Under the pieces are notes generated by a model that was not told the DNA's origin, ran no database searches, and saw nothing but the letters and a program-made list of their open reading frames with translations. Of a stretch of DNA of 64,000 nt, positions 19,850 through 33,640 are shown piece by piece (the first letter of the stretch is position 1; the number at the start of each line of letters is the position of its first letter). Both the position numbers and the translations under genes were made by a program. The stretch spans positions 1-64,000 of the forward strand of contig NZ_VAUA01000009.1 of the NCBI RefSeq assembly GCF_005771405.1, read 5' to 3'. The DNA comes from Parasedimentitalea maritima. Lineage in GTDB: Bacteria > Pseudomonadota > Alphaproteobacteria > Rhodobacterales > Rhodobacteraceae.

Positions 19850-21580
19850 TCACGCCACCCGTTGTTCAAGATCTGCCAGCATTTGTTTGACGTCTTCAAA
19901 CTTGGCCTTGGTTCTGATGTAAGAGTTCCGCGAACCAGAATAGTGCTGATGTTTGACCGCTCTATCAAGATGCCCCCATGGGAAGTACCCCGACATTGAA
20001 TATCCACCCTGCCCACTTGTAGACATTATTGTGGCTCGTGAAACGGCCTCCCGAACCAGCTTTCTAGTCTCTGCAGCTTCCGCTCTATTGTCTTCCCAAT
20101 CCTTGACTATTGATTGAGCGGCTTCCGCCATAGCCTGAAGGTCGTCTGTATCTGCGCTAACGGATTGCACCATTTCCTCAACCAGTCTGGGCGCGTCATC
20201 ATAGGCTTGTTGGGCGGCTTCAACGCTTTGATGTAATTTCCCGCTTTTGCAGTTGGCTTCCAGTCGGGAATTCAAAGTTTCCAATTTCTTCAGGGCACTA
20301 AGAAGTTCCTTATCGTCCTGACCGGCTTCAGAGCGAGATTTTGTGATCATAGCTGAAATTTTATTGACGGTGGGAATAAGGGTATCGTTCAACCCCGTCG
20401 TCGCCGTTTCAAACCATTCGTCTGCTGAACGACCTAACCTGCTACCCGTCGTACAATCCAAAAACATTTCCTTCGCATGCACCGCTGCGGTTTCGACGTC
20501 TTTTGCCAGTTTCGTAATCTTCTTAAGCGCGTCTTCCAGCTTGTCGACCACCTTGAAACTTCGCTTGCCGGGTGAGGCTTCGGTCGTCGTGGCGTCTATT
20601 TCATCCGCAAGTGTTTTGAACTCTGCAGTGGCCGTTGTAACACGCCGACTGGCATCGCCCAGTGCAGACGCGACAAGGCGCAGCGGAAATTCGTCGGAAT
20701 GAATGCCGTTTTTCTGAGCCTGAAGTGCAACCAGACGCTTTGTAAAGGTTTCACTTGTTTCTTCGGTGAGTTTGTTCAGGTTGAGTTCGGCCTCAGAACG
20801 GCAACGCAAAGCACCTCGCTGGTCGCCAGCTGCAAGACACTTCTTACCTTGTTGCACAGACTTAATAAGCTCGGCCGATCTTTCTTTCGAAGTCTTAGTC
20901 AGAAAATCAATAATGACCCGCAGCACATTGCCGGCTTTAGCCTGGAATTGATCTTGTTTGGCCCGAACCGCCTTTTCGTGGAAAGCAATTCCAGCAACCA
21001 GTTTTTTAAGAAGAATGCGATCATTTTTAGCAGGAAAGGCAGCAATGACTTTACGGGCCTCTCCTTTGATACTGTCCAAAACCTGAATGGTTTCGTCAAA
21101 CGCGCGCGCGGTTGTTATTCCGTTCAAAGTCTCGAGCTTGGATTGAAATTGTGGGATCATCGCATTCAAGTCTGATGGGTCCTGGACGGTTGAGCCTAGG
21201 GTCCTTTGCCACCATTCTACTGTCAGCGGATCACGCGCCGTCGCGCGACCCAAAACACCCTGATTTTTGGACTTACTGCTTAGCGCTTCCTCGCCCGAGA
21301 TATCACCATAGTTGCGGATCAGAATAATGTCGTCTTCACCGAAATGGTGTTTCTTGTCATGTTTGATCCTGAAAACAAGGTTTTTTTGTACCAGTCCGAT
21401 TTTGCAATAGGGCTTTTTTAACGCAGCCCCGGCAGCTTGGCCCATCAAGTTTTTGGCACGAGTGAGGCCTGTGGAATCGAAATCCACACCAACAAAGGCG
21501 CGGGCATCATTCCATTTGAATTGGCGGAGTTCGCGCTCATATTCCTTTTCCGATTTGTCCATTTTTGGAAATTTTGCCAT
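19850..21580 (-). CDS. Uncharacterised 576-residue helical protein
   Basis: I do not recognise a family. The first ~115 residues look like a compact alpha/beta region (FVGVDFDSTGLTRAKNLMG, VFRIKHDKKHHFGEDDIILIRNYGD). From about 130 to the end it is mostly long amphipathic helices rich in K, E, A and L, with likely coiled coils; there is a clustered KHQHYSGSRNSYIRTK basic/aromatic segment near the C-terminus. It has no signal peptide or membrane helix, so it is probably cytoplasmic. The start at 21580 (ATG) is chosen over a GTG two codons upstream; AAAAGG lies ~9 nt before it. It stands alone between two long gaps, and 10-bp direct repeats GGCACCCCCA flank it at 19784 and 22013. Its role is unknown. 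Confidence 0.65.
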   Translation of the reverse strand: MAKFPKMDKSEKEYERELRQFKWNDARAFVGVDFDSTGLTRAKNLMGQAAGAALKKPYCKIGLVQKNLVFRIKHDKKHHFGEDDIILIRNYGDISGEEALSSKSKNQGVLGRATARDPLTVEWWQRTLGSTVQDPSDLNAMIPQFQSKLETLNGITTARAFDETIQVLDSIKGEARKVIAAFPAKNDRILLKKLVAGIAFHEKAVRAKQDQFQAKAGNVLRVIIDFLTKTSKERSAELIKSVQQGKKCLAAGDQRGALRCRSEAELNLNKLTEETSETFTKRLVALQAQKNGIHSDEFPLRLVASALGDASRRVTTATAEFKTLADEIDATTTEASPGKRSFKVVDKLEDALKKITKLAKDVETAAVHAKEMFLDCTTGSRLGRSADEWFETATTGLNDTLIPTVNKISAMITKSRSEAGQDDKELLSALKKLETLNSRLEANCKSGKLHQSVEAAQQAYDDAPRLVEEMVQSVSADTDDLQAMAEAAQSIVKDWEDNRAEAAETRKLVREAVSRATIMSTSGQGGYSMSGYFPWGHLDRAVKHQHYSGSRNSYIRTKAKFEDVKQMLADLEQRVA

Positions 21581-21586
21581 GCGCAC

Positions 21587-22121
21587 AATCCTTTTTGACC
21601 TGAACAGGCAAACGAATAAAACCGGCTAAATCCAACCGCCATTGCCCAACTTGAATGCAATCTTCTGCATGTTGTCGCGTTTTCATGTTCCAATCAAGCT
21701 GTCCTTCATCCCTTAAGAGGGACGGTCACCTGAGTTGCGCTATGCCAGCGACCGGAATTACCTGACCCCAAAAAAAGGCCTTCGTTTCGCTTCGATGCCA
21801 CAATTATCAATTTTGGGTAATTGTAGCAGACCTTGGCTACACCACAGAAAATTCGCGAATGGTCCGCTGCTGCCACTCGCGACACCCTCCACGAAAGTCC
21901 ACAATGTGCGTTCATGAACTCTCATATTGCATCAGGTTTAAGAGAATACTGTCGACCTCACAAAGACAGATTTAATTCATATATTCTAATAGGTTAATCG
22001 GCAAAAAGTATAGGCACCCCCATTGACATTCAACGATCTATTTTTCGATTTGTAAACATGTCGGGCGTTTTCGGCTGACGCACTGTCATTCATTCTACGT
22101 CAGAGCCTGCCTCCGATGAAC
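21587..22121. other. Gene-poor island segment
   Basis: About 535 bp with no supportable gene. Plus and minus open frames of 60-70 codons near 21706-21917 overlap each other and show no domain. The segment is AT-rich towards 22000. Confidence 0.5.
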
Positions 22122-24772: not shown

Positions 24773-25008
24773 GTTGACGGTTCCCCATACATTAGTTTTC
24801 CAGATCAGACGGTTTAGCCCGCAGCATAGCTATCAGCCCTTAAGGCCCAGTTATCGGAAACAAGACTGCTTACTTTCACCGAACTGTAGGGTTGGCTTCA
24901 AAACCACTTCGATAGGGAGTTCGCCTGCTACTGACCTCGGTGTAGGTCACAGGCTGTCAACCCGTCTCGTCCGGCATGATTTGCAACGAGTGAATTATGC
25001 GCAGTGGC

Positions 25009-25031
25009 TGCCAATGGAGCATAAGTGTGCA
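25009..25031 (+). repeat. Left terminal inverted repeat
   Basis: TGCCAATGGAGCATAAG followed by TGTGCA. It matches the reverse complement of 33522-33544 at 22 of 23 positions, and identity stops exactly at the outer TG. Related inner motifs follow at 25117 (ATTAGCATGCACG) and 25138 (ATAAGCATGCACA), which look like repeated transposase binding sites. Confidence 0.85.
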
Positions 25032-25223
25032 CGAATCATTAGCTTCAATCGACAGATGGTGGCGCAAGTAGTTGATAATAAATCAATATGTTCACACCTA
25101 CTTTGTGCCAAACACCATTAGCATGCACGTTGGAAGTATAAGCATGCACACTATGATCAAAGAAAAGGCCCGCCAAATGGCGAGCCGGGCACATCTTCTT
25201 TAGACCATTTACGACTGTTCCAT

Positions 25224-26165
25224 TTATCCGCTCAGGTCGAAGAGCTTTTTCGGATCAAACGCTTCCATGAAATCTGGCGCAGTGAACGGCGAATAGTCTT
25301 TGGAAATTCCGGTTCTTGAAGCGTACTGCGCAGCAAAGTGTTGTACTCTCAGTTGAGTTTTTCCCTTCAGTTTCGCGTCAATCAACGTCTCGGTCAGAAG
25401 CTCAATGACAAGGCCCCATCGATGTGAGCTGGCATGATCAAGGCGAGCCAAGAATTCGGGTGTGACAATCTCCTCAATTTCGATTTGAACTTGATCCGCG
25501 AAAGCAAACAAGAGCATGACCAGCTGCTCCTTATCGCGCTTCAGTTTGATGGTACTGAAATGAACTGGGGCCAGGAGTCTATCGAGTTGCTCGTAAGACT
25601 GAATATATTTGGCCAGAGATGGCACCCCTGACAGGATCAACATCAAGGGCCAGCGTGGCTCTTTCATCATAGATTTGAAGCTGTCCAAAAATATTCTGTT
25701 CGATTTAGCCCCTTCGTAGAATACATGCTGGCATTCGTCATAGTGAATTCCGATAACACCTTGTCCTTCAGCCTGATCAAGAACCCTCTCCCAAATATAC
25801 TCTTGGGTACGGGTCCCTTTGATTTCATACCCGAGGGCCTTCAGCGTCTTAATGCCGAGATCTTTGAACGTAACGCGCCCAGAAAGCAGGCAACTAACAA
25901 CCTGTGCGGGTCGCTCATCTGGCATGAGTGTCGCACTGTCATTGAAGTCTCTGATCAGCTTCTTCATCTCACGTGATTTTCCGACTCTCGAATCTCCAGT
26001 CACTACCAGCCCACGCACCTCCAAGTCGCTGATTTCTTGACTTAAGTAGTAATCTTCCACACACTTTTGAAAGGCCACTCTTAGCTCTTCTGCCCTTGGC
26101 AGATTTAGGTGAGCGGCCTTAAGTTGCGCAGCGACTGCAATCTTGTCCATATTTACAAAGCTCAC
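25224..26165 (-). CDS. tniB: TniB/TnsC-like transposition ATPase
   Basis: A 313-residue AAA+ ATPase of the TniB/TnsC group, which links target choice to the transposase. Walker A is G57-D-S-R-V-G-K-S64. Walker B is GIHYDECQHVFY with D143-E144. The sensor region reads LMLILSGVPSLAKYIQSYEQLDRLLAPVHF, as is usual in TniB (an arginine-finger context). The length is normal for TniB and shorter than TnsC. It overlaps the end of tniA by 4 nt, so the two are translationally coupled. Downstream only about 190 bp of transposon end remains before the left inverted repeat. It looks intact. Confidence 0.88.
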   Translation of the reverse strand: MSFVNMDKIAVAAQLKAAHLNLPRAEELRVAFQKCVEDYYLSQEISDLEVRGLVVTGDSRVGKSREMKKLIRDFNDSATLMPDERPAQVVSCLLSGRVTFKDLGIKTLKALGYEIKGTRTQEYIWERVLDQAEGQGVIGIHYDECQHVFYEGAKSNRIFLDSFKSMMKEPRWPLMLILSGVPSLAKYIQSYEQLDRLLAPVHFSTIKLKRDKEQLVMLLFAFADQVQIEIEEIVTPEFLARLDHASSHRWGLVIELLTETLIDAKLKGKTQLRVQHFAAQYASRTGISKDYSPFTAPDFMEAFDPKKLFDLSG

Positions 26166-27664
26166 TTGAACGTACCTTTGTTTTTAGGTCGACCGATTGG
26201 CAGCAATTTTTGTTCATGCTGTCTTGTGTTAGGGAGAACGACGGGCTCTGGTTCTTGAACTGAATAGATTGGTACTTCGCCCTCGTCATCGGCAGTCGCG
26301 TACTCAACTGAGACAGCGGTCAAACCGTCATTCTGATGATCTATTGCTGCACCGCCATCACCAATCGAAAGAACACCCGGACCATTGAGGCTGGAATTGA
26401 TTTCGCCGGGTTGTACCGTTCGACAATCATCGAATGACCGAACGATGCGGGCGCCTCCAAACACGTGGCTTGCTTTTGTTCGACATTCATCAAAGGTTGA
26501 GTAGCTCCGAGGCAAGTTGTTTTCGACGCCAATCCTTCTGAGCTGGTCAAATCGCTTGCGTCGCGTCGACGCGATACGATCTTCATGGATTTCTGTGACG
26601 CCTGGATGCTCCCTGCGGTGGGCCTCAGTTAATTCAAGCACTTCCGGAACAGTCATATCCGCAAATGCCGTAACCTGAAGCTGAAGCCGAAATTCACCTG
26701 CGACCCGTGGAATGATTGCAGTAGCTTCATTTACGTTATCGGGATCGACAAAAACAGAAACCTTGGTCACTGCATTGTCGTCTACGGCAATTTGAAACTC
26801 CGGAGAGTTGAACCAAATCCCTGAGAACACCCGAACACCTTCATCATTCGGCGTAACTTCGAGCTTCCAACCCAGATGAATTCGCCGTTGGTCTTCATCC
26901 ATCAACTTGAAAAGGCCGCGCGTCTTATTGAGTTCTTTGATAACCTCAGCAGGGCGCCGTCCACCCATTCCAACACCCATATGGCGCAAGGATGGATACT
27001 CATCGATGAAGAACCGGGTCAGAATACCATAGAGTTCATCTATATCGAGGACGCCATTGGCTTTGGAATCATAGCCAGGAAGTTCGCCCGCTTTTCTGCC
27101 AGTGTATCCATGGATCAGTTTAACCAAGATAGACTCAGTTGTACCTATCAAGCGTTCTACGTAGGGCTTGTCAGCAGAAGCATGAGTTCTGACAGCTGTA
27201 TATGCCGCAACTGTTCCGAGAAGGCTCTGGATGACAGGCTTGGCCCGCAGCCCAACGCCATTATCTGTTTTTACCATCCCTAAACCCATTGGCGGGGCAG
27301 GGTCTCCTTCGCAACCGTACTTGGCTTTTTCTTTCGCCTTGTCTCGCGTTGCCATCCTCAAAAGCGCAAGTGTCGCTACAGCTTTTGGCTGATCGCTTAC
27401 GATCCACGCCAGCGGCATTCTTGTCGCCACATCAATCATCACGAGCAGAGTAAGGCGCGTCCTGATTTCCGCGTCGATTTCTTCGAGCGCTTTTTTGTCA
27501 TTACTCGACAATCTCTCCCAATAACCCCGTTCCTTTGAAGAAGAGACCAACGACAATTTGCATTCATCTGCTTCGACAAGCTCACCAGGAAACAAAGCGC
27601 GAATATCTGTACTGCCACGTCCTCTTTTGTTCCGCCCGTGACGCTCACCCTTAGTTGCGACCAA
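26162..27664 (-). pseudogene. tniA: TniA/TnsB-like DDE transposase, N-terminally truncated
   Basis: The catalytic core of a Mu/TniA-type transposase. Counting from the TTG at 27664, the triad is D33 (GELVEADECK), D134 (VKTDNGVG) and E170 (DKPYVERLIG), with the usual 35-residue spacing between the last two. A C-terminal beta-barrel (about 260-350) and a charged tail follow. The DNA-binding helix-turn-helix domains that normally precede the core, at least ~150 residues, are missing. The same frame stays open upstream to about 27778, and family-like sequence (VPSQKTLTAHRSF) runs to about 27735, where it meets the cargo gene reading the other way. It lacks an ATG. Without its end-binding domains it should not work. 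Confidence 0.8.
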
Positions 27665-27732
27665 GTATTCGGTAGGATTGAGCAGGAAAGATCGATGGGC
27701 TGTCAGGGTCTTCTGAGATGGGACAATGAGAG

Positions 27733-28677
27733 GTGCCAGGTCGAAGCATACCAGAGCGGGCTGGATCGGCGCAGCGCATTATGGCGACCGTGCGCCGTGA
27801 AAATTTCGATACGCTGGAAAACCGCGTCTTCCACGCCTACGTGCGTCTCGCTGTTGATGCCGCACGTGAATGGCTGCGCGAACATCCCAAGGCAATATCA
27901 AGCGATCGCTATGCACAAGTGGAGGGCTTCAGGAAAGCCTGTCGTTCGGCCGTTCGAGCTCTTCGTGATCTGGGAGTAGGCGTTGCAGAAGCCGGCGTGC
28001 AACCGAACTATGTCTTGATGCAGGACAAGGCCTACAGGCAGGTGCAAGAAAGCTGGCTCCGTTTGCTGTCGCGTAAGAAGATCGAAGACGATCTTTGGGC
28101 ATGGCAAGCCGAAACCTGGACTGACTTTTCGGTGCTCGCAATCACTCTGGCCATCGATGAACTGGAGGAAGCGGAGCTTGTCGCACAGTCCCCGATTACC
28201 TGGAAGGAAGAAGCTGTTGGCGGGCGGTGGTTTGAGCAGGACCGACCGATTGCTGTGTTCTGGTTAAAAAAGACCGGCCGTATTGTCGAAGTGCGGTCCC
28301 GCCCTGAAAAACCCGGGGCTTTGTTGAGTGCAGCACGGGCACACGCAGCGCTGAGGATTACCGATCCAAGCCGGTCTGATGTGCCACGTAGGGTCGCTGT
28401 CTGGACGCCCCACGCCATGGAACGGTTGGATCTTCAGGAGGATGCAGCCCAAGCCGGATTGCACCTGCAACAGATCCAGCCGTTGGCTGTGAGTGAGGTG
28501 TTGCGTCACGGTTTAATTCTGATCCCGGCCCGAGGGAAGGCACAGGCTGTTTCGGCTACGCGAGGCCGGGCCACAGTTAAGGCGATTGCTCTTGGCCCGG
28601 CCGGAGATGAGCTTGCCACCGGATTCAAAGAGGTTCGTGAGTTTGTCCGCGGAGAAATCTACAGGGATACGCAATGA
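27733..28677 (+). pseudogene. DUF2357-like cargo protein, 5' truncated
   Basis: A frame of 314 codons that begins inside a protein. The opening VPGRSIPERAGSAQRIMATV then RRENFDTLENRVFHAYVRLA resembles the body of DUF2357-type proteins (accessory or nuclease partners of McrB-like ATPases), where a conserved REx-x-TxENR segment lies well inside the chain. A stop closes the frame at 27727, immediately upstream, and the truncated tniA abuts from the other side. Its stop overlaps the ATG of the next gene (ATGA), so the two formed an operon. No nuclease motif can be read with confidence. The family call is tentative; a role in defence would be a guess from context. Confidence 0.55.
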
Positions 28678-31077
28678 CACTGAGGAAAGCCTGCGGTTGC
28701 GACTTGAACGGGTGGCGTGACTTCACTGCCAGAAACTGGCTTGTTCTGCCTGGGGAAGAGGAGGAGCGGGGCCCTATTGAGATCGTGGAATGCGGGCCTT
28801 TGACGTCCGTCGTTCAAATTGGAGAAGCCGATCCTGCTCATGGAAAAAAGGCTGTTCGGTGGGTAGGCGGACCTCAGGCTGATGCGGCACCGCATGGGAT
28901 GGGCGGCGGCTGGGGGGGACATCGGCAAGCAGGATCGGCGCGTTGCAGTTAGGTCCCTGCTAACTACCGCAGACGGCGATGCAAGGCAACTTTCTGCTGC
29001 CTTTGAGAGCACAGCTAAAGGAGCTGCTTACACGGCAGTATCAATTGATGACGGAGAGGTTGACCCGGAGAAACTGCAGGAAACCTTGTTGAGTGCGCTG
29101 GCTGAGGGGAAAGTACGCAATCCGATGCTCGTGTGGCGTCCAGTTCTGGTGGCACTGCATGCAATAGAAACCGGCGTCTTATCCGAAGGTCAGAATATTG
29201 CCGTCATTTGTCACAGCAGCAAAGGCTTGTCCGTCCAGAAGCTAAACATTCGACGAGCTGACGGTCGTGGCAGTGTTCTGGCGCCGGAGCGACGGGAAGC
29301 AGCGATTTCCGTTCCTGGGGACATTGGCTACGAATGCCTTGTTCAAAACGCCCGCATAAAGGCGCTGGGGCCAGATGGGTTGTCACCAAGAACGGCCCAC
29401 CGCGCCCTGGCCAAATCGGTCGGCCGTTCCGCATTGGGTTTGGAATGCCGACCAGAGATTCTCAGAATGCCGAACGGAGACTGGGATGTGCTGGAGATGG
29501 CGGATGATAGGTCTTTAGTCCCGTCAGCGATTTCAGGCCCTTTGCCGGATCTGAGTGGCTGTGCTCTTGTCTTGGTCGAAACGGTAGCTGGGAGTTCTCT
29601 GAGGGAGCGGATCACACTTGAATTAAAGTCCCGTACTAAGCGGCCTGTCATCAGTTTGGAACCCGATGCTGTTGCCCGCGGGGCGCTGGTGGCGGCTGGT
29701 AGAGCGGGCGACGGTGACCCGGTGTATTTCGATTTTCTTCCGGTGTTGTCCACAATCGTGTTCGGGAGTGATGGTGCGCAGAGCTTCGACCTCATCAATG
29801 CCGACGAAACCTTAGAGGCAGGCCGAGTCTACCGCAGCCCTGAGCCTGCCCAATTTGCAATTCCTGCAGGTCAGCCCAGCGTCTCGGTTTTCTTGCGCAA
29901 GGAGGCAGAGAGCCGACCGCGAATGGCGACTGTTCCTCTTGAACAACAGCTTTCAGCCCCCACGCCGGTTTCACTCTGGGTCGAACAAAAGCCAGCTTCC
30001 GGGCGAGCCCGCATTGTACTGGAGGCAAGCGAGCTTGGTCGCCAGTTTGCAATAGATTGGGACGAGGCTCTTGAGGATGAGCGGAGCTGGGAACAAATTA
30101 TTGCCGATCTGGAGACGCCCCCTCCTGCGGTCCCGGATCGGCTGGTGTTGAAATGTGGTATGCACCCTTGGGAAGAAAGCACCCGATCAGAAGGTCTGTT
30201 CAGTCTTCTCGAGGCTGAATTGGAAGCAGGGAAGGTGGATTGGGCCACGTTCGCTTCGAAGTTGGCTGCCCGCCCCTTCGGTGAATATTGCATTTCAAGT
30301 GACGGAATACTGCCCAATTCTATTCCGCCGGAGACCGTCAATCGGCTCGACCAGCTTACCGAGATGGCAATGAGGGAGACACAGGCACGTATCGCTTCCA
30401 AGCCGACAGCTGCGAATAAGGACAATGCTGCCCTGCAATTTTTGACATGGCAATTCCGACGCTGTCCGAAAACCGTCGCGGATTGGCTGATTGATTGCGC
30501 CGGGTACAGGTCCTTTCCAGTAGGTAGCCATCCTTTCGTGCAGTACCAAGCAAGTTGGATCCTGATTTTTCAGGGCCTTGGCCGAATTGCTTCCGATGTA
30601 GAGACCGAAAACCGGATCATCCAGTTGTTAATGTCGATTAAACCGGAAACTTGGAGCTGGCGTATCGAAAGCGCGAGTATGGCCTTCTTGCTGTCGAGGT
30701 CAGACAGCGCCCCATTGCTATTGGATCCAGACGACTTTGAACGGCTGGTCAAGCAGGCCGTGGCAGACTTTAGGGCCAACCTTCACAGCAATTATACAAA
30801 ATTCAACTATGCACCATTCTTGACTGCTGGATTGCTACGCTACCGGCTTAAAGAGCCAATGGCGCTACTGCTGGGGCATGATCCTCTCGCTGGGGATCTA
30901 TTTAGGGCCATTGAAGCGGCAGAAACGGACCTCTTGCGTAATAGATCAAAGAAAGATCCCGGTTTTAACAGGAGAAAGGACAAATTTCTTCCCATTCTGG
31001 CAGACTTGAAGACCTACCTTGAAGGTGACGATGGCAATCCTAATCTGCTTCTGGATATCTATGGAGCAGGCCCCTGA
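28674..31077 (+). pseudogene. Large cargo protein of unknown function, frameshifted
   Basis: Two frames read as one protein of about 800 residues: 28674-28918 (RKACGCDLNGWRDF ... ADAAPHGMGGGWG) continues as DIGKQDRRVAVRSLLTTAD to 31077 after dropping one G from the run of seven at 28912-28918. I do not recognise the family. The region about 150-330 (CALVLVETVAGSSLRERITL, PVYFDFLPVLSTIVFG) has an actin/Hsp70-like flavour, and the C-terminal third is helical (LADWLI-type repeats, LLMSIKPETWSWRIESASMAF). Its ATG overlaps the stop of the DUF2357-like gene. Either the frameshift inactivates it or it is a homopolymer sequencing error. Confidence 0.55.
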
Positions 31078-31500
31078 ATTGGGGGGAGGATAAATGCGAT
31101 CTGGTCGCTTCAGCAACATGGCTATTTAATAGAGTTTACCACAGTAGACGGCTATCAAGGACTATTGGCTTTCGTCTTGGTCAATTTGGATAGTTGTTTG
31201 CAAGCCGCATCAACATCTGTGGAAACGTGGTTTTTACTCATCTCTTCATACCGGTTGAACCAGCGGCTGGTTGGCGGATGTCTCAGAAAAGGCTTCAATT
31301 GGCCTGAGGCGGCGTACGGCTTTGTTGATGGCGTGGATGATCCTTTCTTCTGTGATGACTTCATCCATCACATTTGGAGTATCCGCAGCAAGTGCAGCTC
31401 AAGCACCCATTGAGTATTTCAGCCTTCCTCTGATGGACTGTGGTGAAACCCTCAGCCATAGTGGCGTCACCTCTGCCTAAATACGTAGTTCGCTCCATCT
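31078..31500. other. Gap between cargo and tniQ, possible gene remnant
   Basis: No complete gene. On the minus strand one frame (about 31380-31255) reads VMDEVITEERIIHAINKAVR then RLRPIEAFSETSANQPLVQ before a stop, and another (to 31155) starts MSKNHVSTDVDAACKQLSKL. They could be two pieces of one decayed gene, but I cannot name it. Confidence 0.35.
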
Positions 31501-33347
31501 GTGCCAAAACCACTCCCCCTCCGCGCTGTGCCAATCCACAGGGAGACAATCCCGTCATTTCTGTCTCGAATGGCGGCACTAAACGGCGTCTGTTCTGCTG
31601 ACTTCGCCGTCGATATGGGCTTTTCACTCAAAAGGGTTATTCATCTCGAAGAAACTGTTTTGCGTGACCTCGCTGCATGTGGCGGTCTGACTGATACACA
31701 GCTTGAAGAACTAATTTCTTGGACCGGGCGAGGCATTGGCGATGTCCGGATGATCTTTCGAGGTGAGTTTTTTGTCTCTCGTGCGCTCAGGAAGCCGATC
31801 ATCCGAGGCTGTCCTATCTGTTTGCGCGAAGATATTAAAACTGACAGTGCCCGCCCTCTCACTCAAATGGCTATGCGTGGGGACTGGCAAATGCGAGAGG
31901 CCAGTCTCTGTATCACGCATCGCCATCCCTTAGTGCAGCTTTGGGAACACCGCCGCCCCGAAGATAGGTATGATTTTTCATTGCGTTTCACCGGCATCCT
32001 GGAAGACATCAAGGACGGTAGGTTGGAGCGTCCACGTGTGACACCTTCGCCATATAACTGGTGGCTCAATGCTCGCCTTGAAACTGGTGCAGACCATACG
32101 TGGCTCGCCGGCCAATCGCTTTATGCTGCAACAACATTTTGCACACTTCTGGGATCAGAACTTTTACGTTTGAAAGATCCTACCGGTTTGGATGTAGCTG
32201 CGCATCGGCAGCTCGCTCAAGCCACGGGCTTTGAGATAGCCCACCGAGGAAAAGCTGCTATCCGGGATGCATTAACCGAACTCGCTGCACTTGCTGATGG
32301 CTCCAACGACACGCCAAGTAAAGCCTTTGGAAGGCTATTCGGAAACTTGAGTCAGATCAATTTGAGTAGAGATGACTTCGCTCAATTCCGCCAAATACTA
32401 CGGGACTGCATCGTCGATATCTGGCCAGTTGCTGCTGGGGAAAGCGTTTTGGGGATTATCCAGCCTGAAAGGCAACTACATTCAGTCGTTACCGCTGCGC
32501 GAGAAGCAAACATAGGATCGGCCCTACTTGAGCAATTTCTGGTCGATGCCGGTGCGATTGATGCAGACGATGATAGACCCACCTCCCGAAAAACCTTCAA
32601 AGCCACAGCGTATGCTGACCTGCTGGCGGAAGTTCCAACATTGGTAGGCCCCACCGAAATGCAGCGAGTGATGGGAGCGACGCAGGCTCAACTGATGTCA
32701 TTGGCGGAAGATGGTGTGCTGGCGCCCCGGATCAACATCCCCACGGTCAACTCGCCGTGGCGTCCGACTGACGGCATTGCATTGATTGCCGAACTTCAAG
32801 AGTTGTCTGTCCCAATAGAACCCTCTGACAAACGGTGGGAAGGAATTCAGCAAGCCAAGAAACGCTCTGGTGCGCGCGTCGGTGCGATCATCACCTCGCT
32901 TCGTGAAGGCAAACTTCAGCTCGGTCGACGCACTGATCTTGAGGGATATGCCGGGTTTTGTGTTTTGATGGAAGAAATCGACCAGATGAGTCGTCAAAAA
33001 CAAGATCCTGCTGAACTCACTTTTCTGACTGCCGCTGTTTTTAGCCGGCCCGTTGGCATGCGCACCCAAGGGTGGTTCGAAAGACTTGCGGCTGCGGGTC
33101 ACACGCCTGCAACACGCAGGCCCCACCCGAAATGGGGGGGGGTGAACGGGTCTATGTCTCTCCTTCTGATATCGACGACTTTCACAGACGCTTTCTGACT
33201 TCTACGACCATGGAAACAGAGTTCGGACAACATCGAAGAACTCTGCTTGCGAAACTGAAAGCCGCAAAGGTGAATCCCTTTATGCCAAATGGAGAGAGTT
33301 ACGGTGCTCTTTACCTCCGCGAGGAAGTCGAAGCTGTCCTTAGATGA
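31501..33347 (+). pseudogene. tniQ: TniQ/TnsD-like target-selection protein, frameshifted
   Basis: TniQ family protein. The N-terminal part begins LPLRAVPIHRETIPSFLSRMA, the family start, and carries the zinc-finger motif C104-P-I-C107 ... C137-I-T-H140. The first frame ends at 33198 with a nonsense tail; the true C-terminus (ERVYVSPSDIDDFHRRFLTS through LREEVEAVLR) lies in another frame up to 33347. Joining them needs one more base in the run of nine G at 33134-33142. The joined protein would be about 615 residues, the size of a long TnsD-like TniQ that recognises a fixed DNA site. It sits next to the right end and the tRNA-Arg gene, its likely target. The GTG start has a weak ribosome site. 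Confidence 0.8.
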
Positions 33348-33563
33348 CTTTTTAGTTCGGCCCTTGATGCGCCCGGGAATGCACGAAATGCGCAACGAGC
33401 GTTACTAAACACCCAATCCAATTGCAGCGATCAGCACGAATGCACCCAACCGCCGCGCGGAATGGTGGATGGTGCAAAAACAAACCTATTGACAAGCGGT
33501 TTGCATGAAAGCGGGCGATTTTGCACGCTTATGCTCCATTGGCAATGGCATTTAAAAGAATAC
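33348..33563. promoter_or_regulatory. Right transposon end with repeated binding sites
   Basis: No gene. Reading inwards from the right inverted repeat, TGCA-centred motifs recur: AAGCGTGCAAAA, TTTCATGCAAAC, TTTTTGCACCAT, GGGTGCATTCGTGC and TTTCGTGCATTC. They resemble the multiple transposase binding sites found at Tn7-like ends. Confidence 0.55.
33522..33544 (-). repeat. Right terminal inverted repeat
   Basis: TGCACGCTTATGCTCCATTG then GCA; the reverse complement of the left repeat at 25009-25031 with one mismatch. It ends 19 bp before the first base of the tRNA-Arg gene (its CCA end). Confidence 0.85.
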
Positions 33564-33640
33564 TGGCGATCCCTGAAGGACTCGAACCCTCAACCTGCTG
33601 ATTAGAAGTCAGCTGCTCTATCCAGTTGAGCTAAGGGACC
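33564..33640 (-). tRNA. tRNA-Arg (anticodon TCT)
   Basis: A 77-nt cloverleaf on the minus strand. The acceptor stem GGTCCCT pairs with AGGGATC, followed by G and an encoded CCA. The D-loop begins TAGCTCAACTGGATAGAGCA. The anticodon arm CTGACTTCTAATCAG gives anticodon TCT (reads AGA/AGG arginine codons). The T-arm is GGGTTCGAGTCC. It is intact; its 3' end doubles as the right att-like repeat and borders the Tn7-like element. Confidence 0.97.

Follow-up and report, generated by a model that had tools for sequence, protein, structure and literature searches.

Tn7 carries several TnsB sites at asymmetric ends, makes a 5-bp duplication on insertion and has glmS as its target. In related systems, as described in the literature cited here, the same kind of target selector leads to tRNA genes instead: CyCAST (Tn7745) homes 30-33 nt beyond tRNA-Leu through TnsD, a class of proteins with long C-terminal regions that hold several helix-turn-helix (HTH) domains (PMC10293859); the I-B2 and I-D elements, in which TnsA and TnsB are fused, combine TnsD with different tRNA genes (PMC11406308); and elements in a survey of 6,549 Tn7-like transposons appear to integrate downstream of tRNAs (PMC8649781). 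Here we analyse computationally an 8.5-kb element at positions 25009-33544 of a 64,000-nt stretch of Parasedimentitalea maritima DNA (contig NZ_VAUA01000009.1, hereafter the window). We conclude, with a probability of about 87%, that it is a decayed member of a Rhodobacteraceae Tn7-like family that appears to target the 3' flank of tRNA genes via TniQ.

Elements of this kind are already known, as tRNA-targeting TnsD/TniQ proteins have been published for cyanobacterial elements. The initial annotation of the window knew of no described element with such a layout and site. A family-restricted branch with a preference for Arg that spills over to other tRNAs, and with a target independent of end type, was not found in the open-licence papers searched. 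The same literature yielded no such Tn7-like family in Rhodobacteraceae or alphaproteobacteria and no TniQ at tRNA-Arg, either of which may be described elsewhere, and the words 'Rhodobacter' and 'Alphaproteobacteria' are absent from the main text of the 6,549-element survey (PMC8649781). The closest described systems are the I-B2 and I-D CRISPR-associated transposons (CASTs) and their kin (Tn7744, Tn7575 and CyCAST), which, as reported, resemble the present family in having a long, HTH-rich TnsD/TniQ, in inserting downstream of tRNA genes and in using different tRNA genes within one group. They differ in their fused TnsA-TnsB and their CRISPR-Cas systems, whereas here the putative TnsA is a separate open reading frame (ORF; loci L098, L099 and L100) and no array was found. 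CyCAST further differs in its spacing of 30-33 nt, as against 10-20 bp here, mostly at tRNA-Arg(TCT/CCT) and in Rhodobacteraceae, a separation drawn from published descriptions rather than from TnsD sequences. With Tn7 the family has in common the roles of TnsB, TnsC and TnsD and probably that of TnsA (PMC10293859), but it is found at tRNA genes rather than glmS, and its tniQ lies at the end opposite tnsABC. The naming and domains of tniA, tniB and tniQ are those of the Tn5053/Tn402 tni modules. In contrast to the resolvase (tniR) and res-site targeting of these modules, the site here is a tRNA gene, Pfam revealed no resolvase among the seven window ORFs scanned, and relatives possess a TnsA-like ORF.

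The ends of the window element are 23-bp inverted repeats (25009-25031 on the plus strand and 33522-33544 on the minus strand) that are complementary at 22 of 23 positions. Their pattern, at up to three mismatches, occurs at just these two sites in the 64 kb and at none in 100 shuffles; a chance inverted repeat is ruled out as their origin by these shuffles and by this uniqueness. The left repeat contains an outer TnsB-type site, CATAAGTGTGCA (25020-25031), followed on the same strand by a second, CATTAGCATGCA (25116-25127, offset 107), and a third, TATAAGCATGCA (25137-25148, offset 128), while the right repeat holds the outer site CATAAGCGTGCA and is preceded by a TTGACA motif on the plus strand (33489-33494, offset 50). 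Between the ends lie the three components typical of Tn7-like elements. The tniB gene (25224-26165, minus strand), assigned by Pfam (PF05621, E 6e-9) and by its relatives, encodes a TnsC-like AAA+ ATPase with the Walker A motif GDSRVGKS. The 5'-truncated tniA (26162-27740, minus strand; first start codon at 27664, 5' limit approximate and set by eye) encodes a TnsB-like DDE transposase with D33, D134 and E170, its rve match (E 5e-5) falling under the Pfam cut-off. The TnsD-like target selector tniQ (PF06527, E 1e-15) runs on the plus strand from 31501 to 33198, with C104, C107, C137 and H140 present, and its C-terminal end continues in a second frame (33114-33347, plus strand). A 19-bp gap beginning ATGGC (33545-33563) separates the right end from the CCA end of an intact tRNA-Arg(TCT) gene (33564-33640, minus strand), the proposed attachment gene, whose CCA end faces the element. 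The inverted ends, the motifs of all three proteins and the 19-bp distance had been read in the same way by the initial annotation.

The association with tRNA genes extends well beyond this copy. A search for TniQ in 248 family genomes gave matches at E<=0.001 in 53, and one with a nine-row profile in 390 genomes from the order gave matches at E<=1e-30 in 115; the loci examined are those fetched, mostly the better-scoring ones, with many weaker matches left out. In a tree of 75 rows, each of at least 100 bits and at least 400 profile positions, the window TniQ belongs to a 35-row clade (SH-aLRT 98, quick tree) in which 29 rows have an intact tRNA gene within 600 bp, in every case convergent with tniQ, 3' end to 3' end. 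Only one of the 40 rows outside this clade (L050) has an intact tRNA gene within that distance, and none of 14 outgroup rows has a tRNA there. A set of 32 non-redundant tRNA-adjacent loci, all convergent, comprises 18 at Arg(TCT), nine at Arg(CCT), two at Met and one each at Gln, Trp and Gly; having been picked for a nearby tRNA and a TniQ C-terminus, it gives no rate, for which 29/35 stands. The use of six tRNA types rules out tRNA-Arg(TCT) as the sole site. The earlier proposal that the long TniQ recognises the 3' end of tRNA-Arg is supported as far as tRNA targeting is concerned, but not for Arg alone; similarly, relatives do lie beside tRNA genes, though neither at a fixed distance of about 20 bp nor always at tRNA-Arg(TCT). 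When 385 genomes drawn from the whole class were searched at E<=1e-60, only the window's own genome matched, so that at that stringency the clade looks confined to the family, and phage records gave no match. On NZ_CP039965.1 of Pseudorhodobacter turbinis, the one record examined of 33 matching plasmid records, TniQ likewise adjoins tRNA-Arg(TCT). At two loci (L049 and L194) the TniQ ends adjoin truncated tRNA-Arg genes that retain the 3' part only, which suggests later damage to, or duplication of, the tRNA end.

The ends of the family fall by pattern into three types: I (..CTTATG..TTGGCA), II (..GATGTCGAACAACA) and III (GGTG..GGTG). These patterns are loose, one locus (L177) being called mixed and dropped and another (L191) missed. 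When seven of the 32 loci with other or mixed end types are set aside together with L180, the distance from element end to tRNA is 10-20 bp in all 24 placed loci, most commonly 14 bp. We examined both ends in seven elements, namely that of the window and those of genomes G479, G441, G561, G377, G555 and G493 (G and L numbers are our labels for genomes and loci). Multiple transposase sites at asymmetric ends, a Tn7-like hallmark, are found in five of the seven: the window, G479, G561, G377 and G555 carry left-end TnsB-type sites at 11, 106-108 and 127-129, and at the right end all seven have a TnsB-type site at 11 and TTGACA at 49-52. The TTGACA motif inside the right end recurs in 22 of the 24 type I loci (25 are listed, L041 having a type II variant end), and no -10 box was visible by eye at the usual spacing from it. 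A second hallmark, the 5-bp duplication, is exact in three of the seven elements (AAATT in G479, AGCGC in G493 and GAACA in G441, the last read with the repeat taken from AGTCAGAG, both ends being shifted outward by 2 bp in accordance with the 28-nt repeat).

Complete elements were found among the relatives. A search for TniA in 26 genomes that carry such a TniQ gave matches at E<=1e-10 in 20. A full TnsA-TniA-TniB set shares one contig with TniQ in G479, G441, G561, G377, G555 and G385, in elements of 39.6, 38.7, 26.6, 44.1 and 22.9 kb for the first five, the far end of the sixth being off the contig. In all six, 16-38 kb separates the TnsA-TniA-TniB genes, which face the far end, from tniQ, which faces the near end; this bears out the opposite-ends layout first noticed in the window. 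The gene following TniQ is a tRNA in G479, G441, G377 and G385; G561 has a second element there and G555 has no tRNA. No tRNA was found at the TniB end in any of the five elements whose far flank was fetched. The TnsA-like ORF, separate and 243-256 amino acids (aa) long, precedes tniA in L098, L099 and L100. Of these three ORFs only that of L099 matches the TnsA models, weakly and under the cut-off, and a profile built from the three matches in all six full gene sets. The same split layout recurs in a neighbouring TniQ clade (G067), with no tRNA or clear end. Several further arrangements accompany these elements: in G561 (C21, 67-71 kb) a second element begins about 2 bp past the right end of the first; in G377 (C11, near 45.8 kb) the element is preceded by remnants, a fragment of TniQ and an old right end; and in G441 the element contains a second, different TniQ (C2:297292-299091), some 6 kb away from the one at the tRNA end. 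Close relatives of this second TniQ (L052, L201, L202 and L204) have no recognised end beside them, and its role may lie in a different targeting route.

That the insertion site is set by TniQ, and not by the transposon ends, is best supported by how the two characters are distributed over the tree. In a sister TniQ clade, five rows (L051:6087-8348, L197, L199, L205 and L054) are convergent to the 3' end of a gene that Pfam identifies, beside the TniQ of L051, as a ribonucleotide reductase and that we take to be nrdJ; this candidate second attachment site, at a protein-coding gene, was not found as a Tn7-like target in the open-licence literature searched. Each end type occurs with both targets, types I, II and III lying at tRNA genes in 23, 4 and 1 cases and at nrdJ in 1, 2 and 2. 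On the TniQ tree, target class changes once among 35 labelled rows, compared with 3-5 times in 200 shuffles, while end type changes at least six times among 44 typed rows, compared with 10-13 in shuffles, so that some signal resides in end type too. Three type I calls (L169, L099 and L109) are unconfirmed by eye, and the six changes hold without them. As judged from these distributions, the target follows TniQ and not end type.

Among 30 rows, 10 changes of anticodon are counted on the tree, hardly fewer than chance would give, since 21 of 200 shuffles do as well. TniQs that are 90% identical lie at tRNA-Trp (L189) and at tRNA-Arg(CCT) (L177 and L190), and others 83% identical at Arg(CCT) and Arg(TCT) (L045 and L173). 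Because near-identical TniQs are found at different tRNAs, TniQ probably reads the T-arm and CCA end common to tRNA genes, while still preferring Arg(TCT/CCT). Putting these strands together, we tentatively propose, at somewhat less than even odds, that one TniQ lineage recognises the T-arm and CCA end as features common to many tRNA genes while favouring Arg(TCT/CCT), that recombination swaps selectors between transposase and end types, and that the split layout would act as a device for modular exchange; the swapping is suggested by the position of tniQ opposite tnsABC and by the tandem pile-up of elements at the site. At L176, a type II end lies between the type I end, which it adjoins immediately, and the tRNA, as would result from recombination between two elements.

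An AlphaFold model of the TniQ of one relative (Pseudophaeobacter EL27; mean pLDDT 87.2, pTM 0.66) finds its best matches among solved TniQ proteins (6v9p, E 1.1e-4, with a TM-score of just 0.27 by query length), and a sequence search of the PDB with the TniQ profile gave no match at E<=0.01. The C-terminal half of the model appears by eye as a row of small helix-strand modules that match proteins of the Xis and MerR types only weakly (4j2n, E 0.5, probability 0.98), a modularity in agreement with the published description of TnsD (PMC10293859). We hypothesize that TniQ binds the tRNA gene, probably its 3' half, through this row of HTH-like modules, and that TniB/TnsC is recruited after TniQ has bound. 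TnsA and TniA/TnsB, acting on the ends, would then insert the element in one orientation at 10-20 bp past the tRNA gene, producing a 5-bp duplication and leaving the tRNA whole, presumably by cut-and-paste. Insertion directed to a conserved gene by TnsD/TniQ, a further Tn7-like hallmark, is in this family indicated by association, and it is the association itself, with the anatomy, ends and spacing, that can be read directly from the DNA.

Two other routes to a tRNA-adjacent position have to be weighed. The best PADLOC matches of the window TniA and TniQ are CAST models, and type V-K elements are reported to use tRNA sites (PMC11406308), so the family could in principle be CAST-like, led by a CRISPR guide matching the tRNA gene. 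Yet a crude exact 22-mer scan disclosed no CRISPR-like array in seven elements, and in five elements exact matches to the 130 bp of tRNA flank reached at most 10-15 nt, never above the longest control of the same element. PADLOC found no cas genes among the window ORFs, such genes having been left unsought in the cargo of relatives. The lack of an array and the control-level matches make a guide RNA unlikely, and the TniQ here, of about 614 aa, contrasts with a V-K TniQ described as having two N-terminal domains only (PMC10293859); we consider this origin extremely improbable. Equally, other islands also tend to insert at the 3' ends of tRNA genes, and a transposon might have landed in, or ridden with, an island integrated there by chance. 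The tRNA-Arg flank in the same genus does carry other material, and in three genomes (L144, L145 and L149) it ends, by eye, in a tyrosine-integrase-like C-terminus, which marks the tRNA-Arg(TCT) flank as a hot spot that attracts islands of different kinds. The duplications, and a spacing that holds across several tRNA types, nevertheless make it unlikely that these elements hitch-hiked in integrase islands. Moreover, the outgroup TniQs show no such proximity to tRNA genes, and no integrase was found by Pfam in the seven window ORFs searched, so that we regard coincidence, too, as exceedingly unlikely.

Several observations nonetheless weigh against a tRNA-directed Tn7-like family. The distance to the tRNA varies over 10-20 bp instead of being fixed. 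G441 and G493 show the outer left site only by the pattern that finds all three elsewhere, the window flanks (GTGGC at 25004-25008, a candidate target-site duplication, and ATGGC at 33545-33549) agree at only four of five positions, and no clean duplication is seen in G561, G377 or G555. Six of the 35 clade rows lack an intact tRNA gene (L164, L194, L165, L039, L169 and L172): the end of L164 abuts the end of another element and L165 is the tRNA-free locus of G555, but the missing tRNA of L039, L169 and L172 is unexplained. Finally, six of the 26 genomes gave no TniA match (G515, G474, G395, G106, G215 and G408), the full gene set lies on the TniQ contig in only six of the 26, and the sole TniA match in G545 is about 680 kb from its TniQ. 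Together with G493 and G424, where there are TniA fragments only, these missing and distant TniAs indicate that many copies are decayed or orphaned, as is that of the window.

The window copy could instead be seen as a live, compact split element working as it stands, as the initial annotation implied: both ends and their spacing are conserved, and the catalytic triad of TniA is intact, as is TniB. However, full TniA relatives (L099, L098 and L100) measure 724, 740 and 759 aa, and in all three alignments 260-261 residues precede the first residue of the window TniA, whose frame represents the C-terminal two thirds only; tnsA is absent from the window altogether. The TniQ frame is broken at a run of nine G residues (33134-33142), its last ~75 residues lying in another frame; this C-terminal end has counterparts in 23 of the 25 loci compared. 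The first cargo gene, C1 (27736-28677, plus strand), likewise begins only near 27736 and corresponds to no more than the last ~311 residues of an ORF of 498 aa in G104, while the second, C2 (28674-31077, plus strand), which would encode a protein of ~800 aa, is split at a run of seven G residues (28912-28918). A single internal deletion probably took tnsA together with the 5' parts of tniA and C1, joining the two truncated genes near 27720-27740. Sequencing errors might account for the frameshifts in the G7 and G9 runs, though less easily for the missing tnsA/tniA stretch. Decay thus accounts better for the window element, which is probably immobile on its own; that it works unaided we think very unlikely.

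Neither cargo gene matched anything in Pfam, NCBIfam or PADLOC; C1 is presumably DUF2357/McrC-like. The cargo (27736-31077) resembles part of an operon in G104 (L265) whose members, named by eye, are a helicase-like protein, a coiled-coil protein, an AAA ATPase, C1 and C2, and it looks like part of a defence operon, as far as names given by eye can tell. No empty site for the window insertion was found in the same genus: on the tRNA side G248 agrees to 96% with the window as far as position 33552 and carries other material beyond, the next shared marker to the left lying at ~21000-21800. The window's own genome also contains, at another place, a distantly related second TniA-TniB-TniQ set (G000:C2:210509-214031).

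By crossing three end types with two targets, and by placing closely related TniQs at different tRNA genes, the family amounts to a natural experiment that makes the rule by which TnsD-type proteins read their sites directly testable. Insertion that is directed to tRNA genes and spares them could serve genome engineering in alphaproteobacteria. In Rhodobacteraceae themselves, the family may explain part of the island traffic at tRNA-Arg genes.

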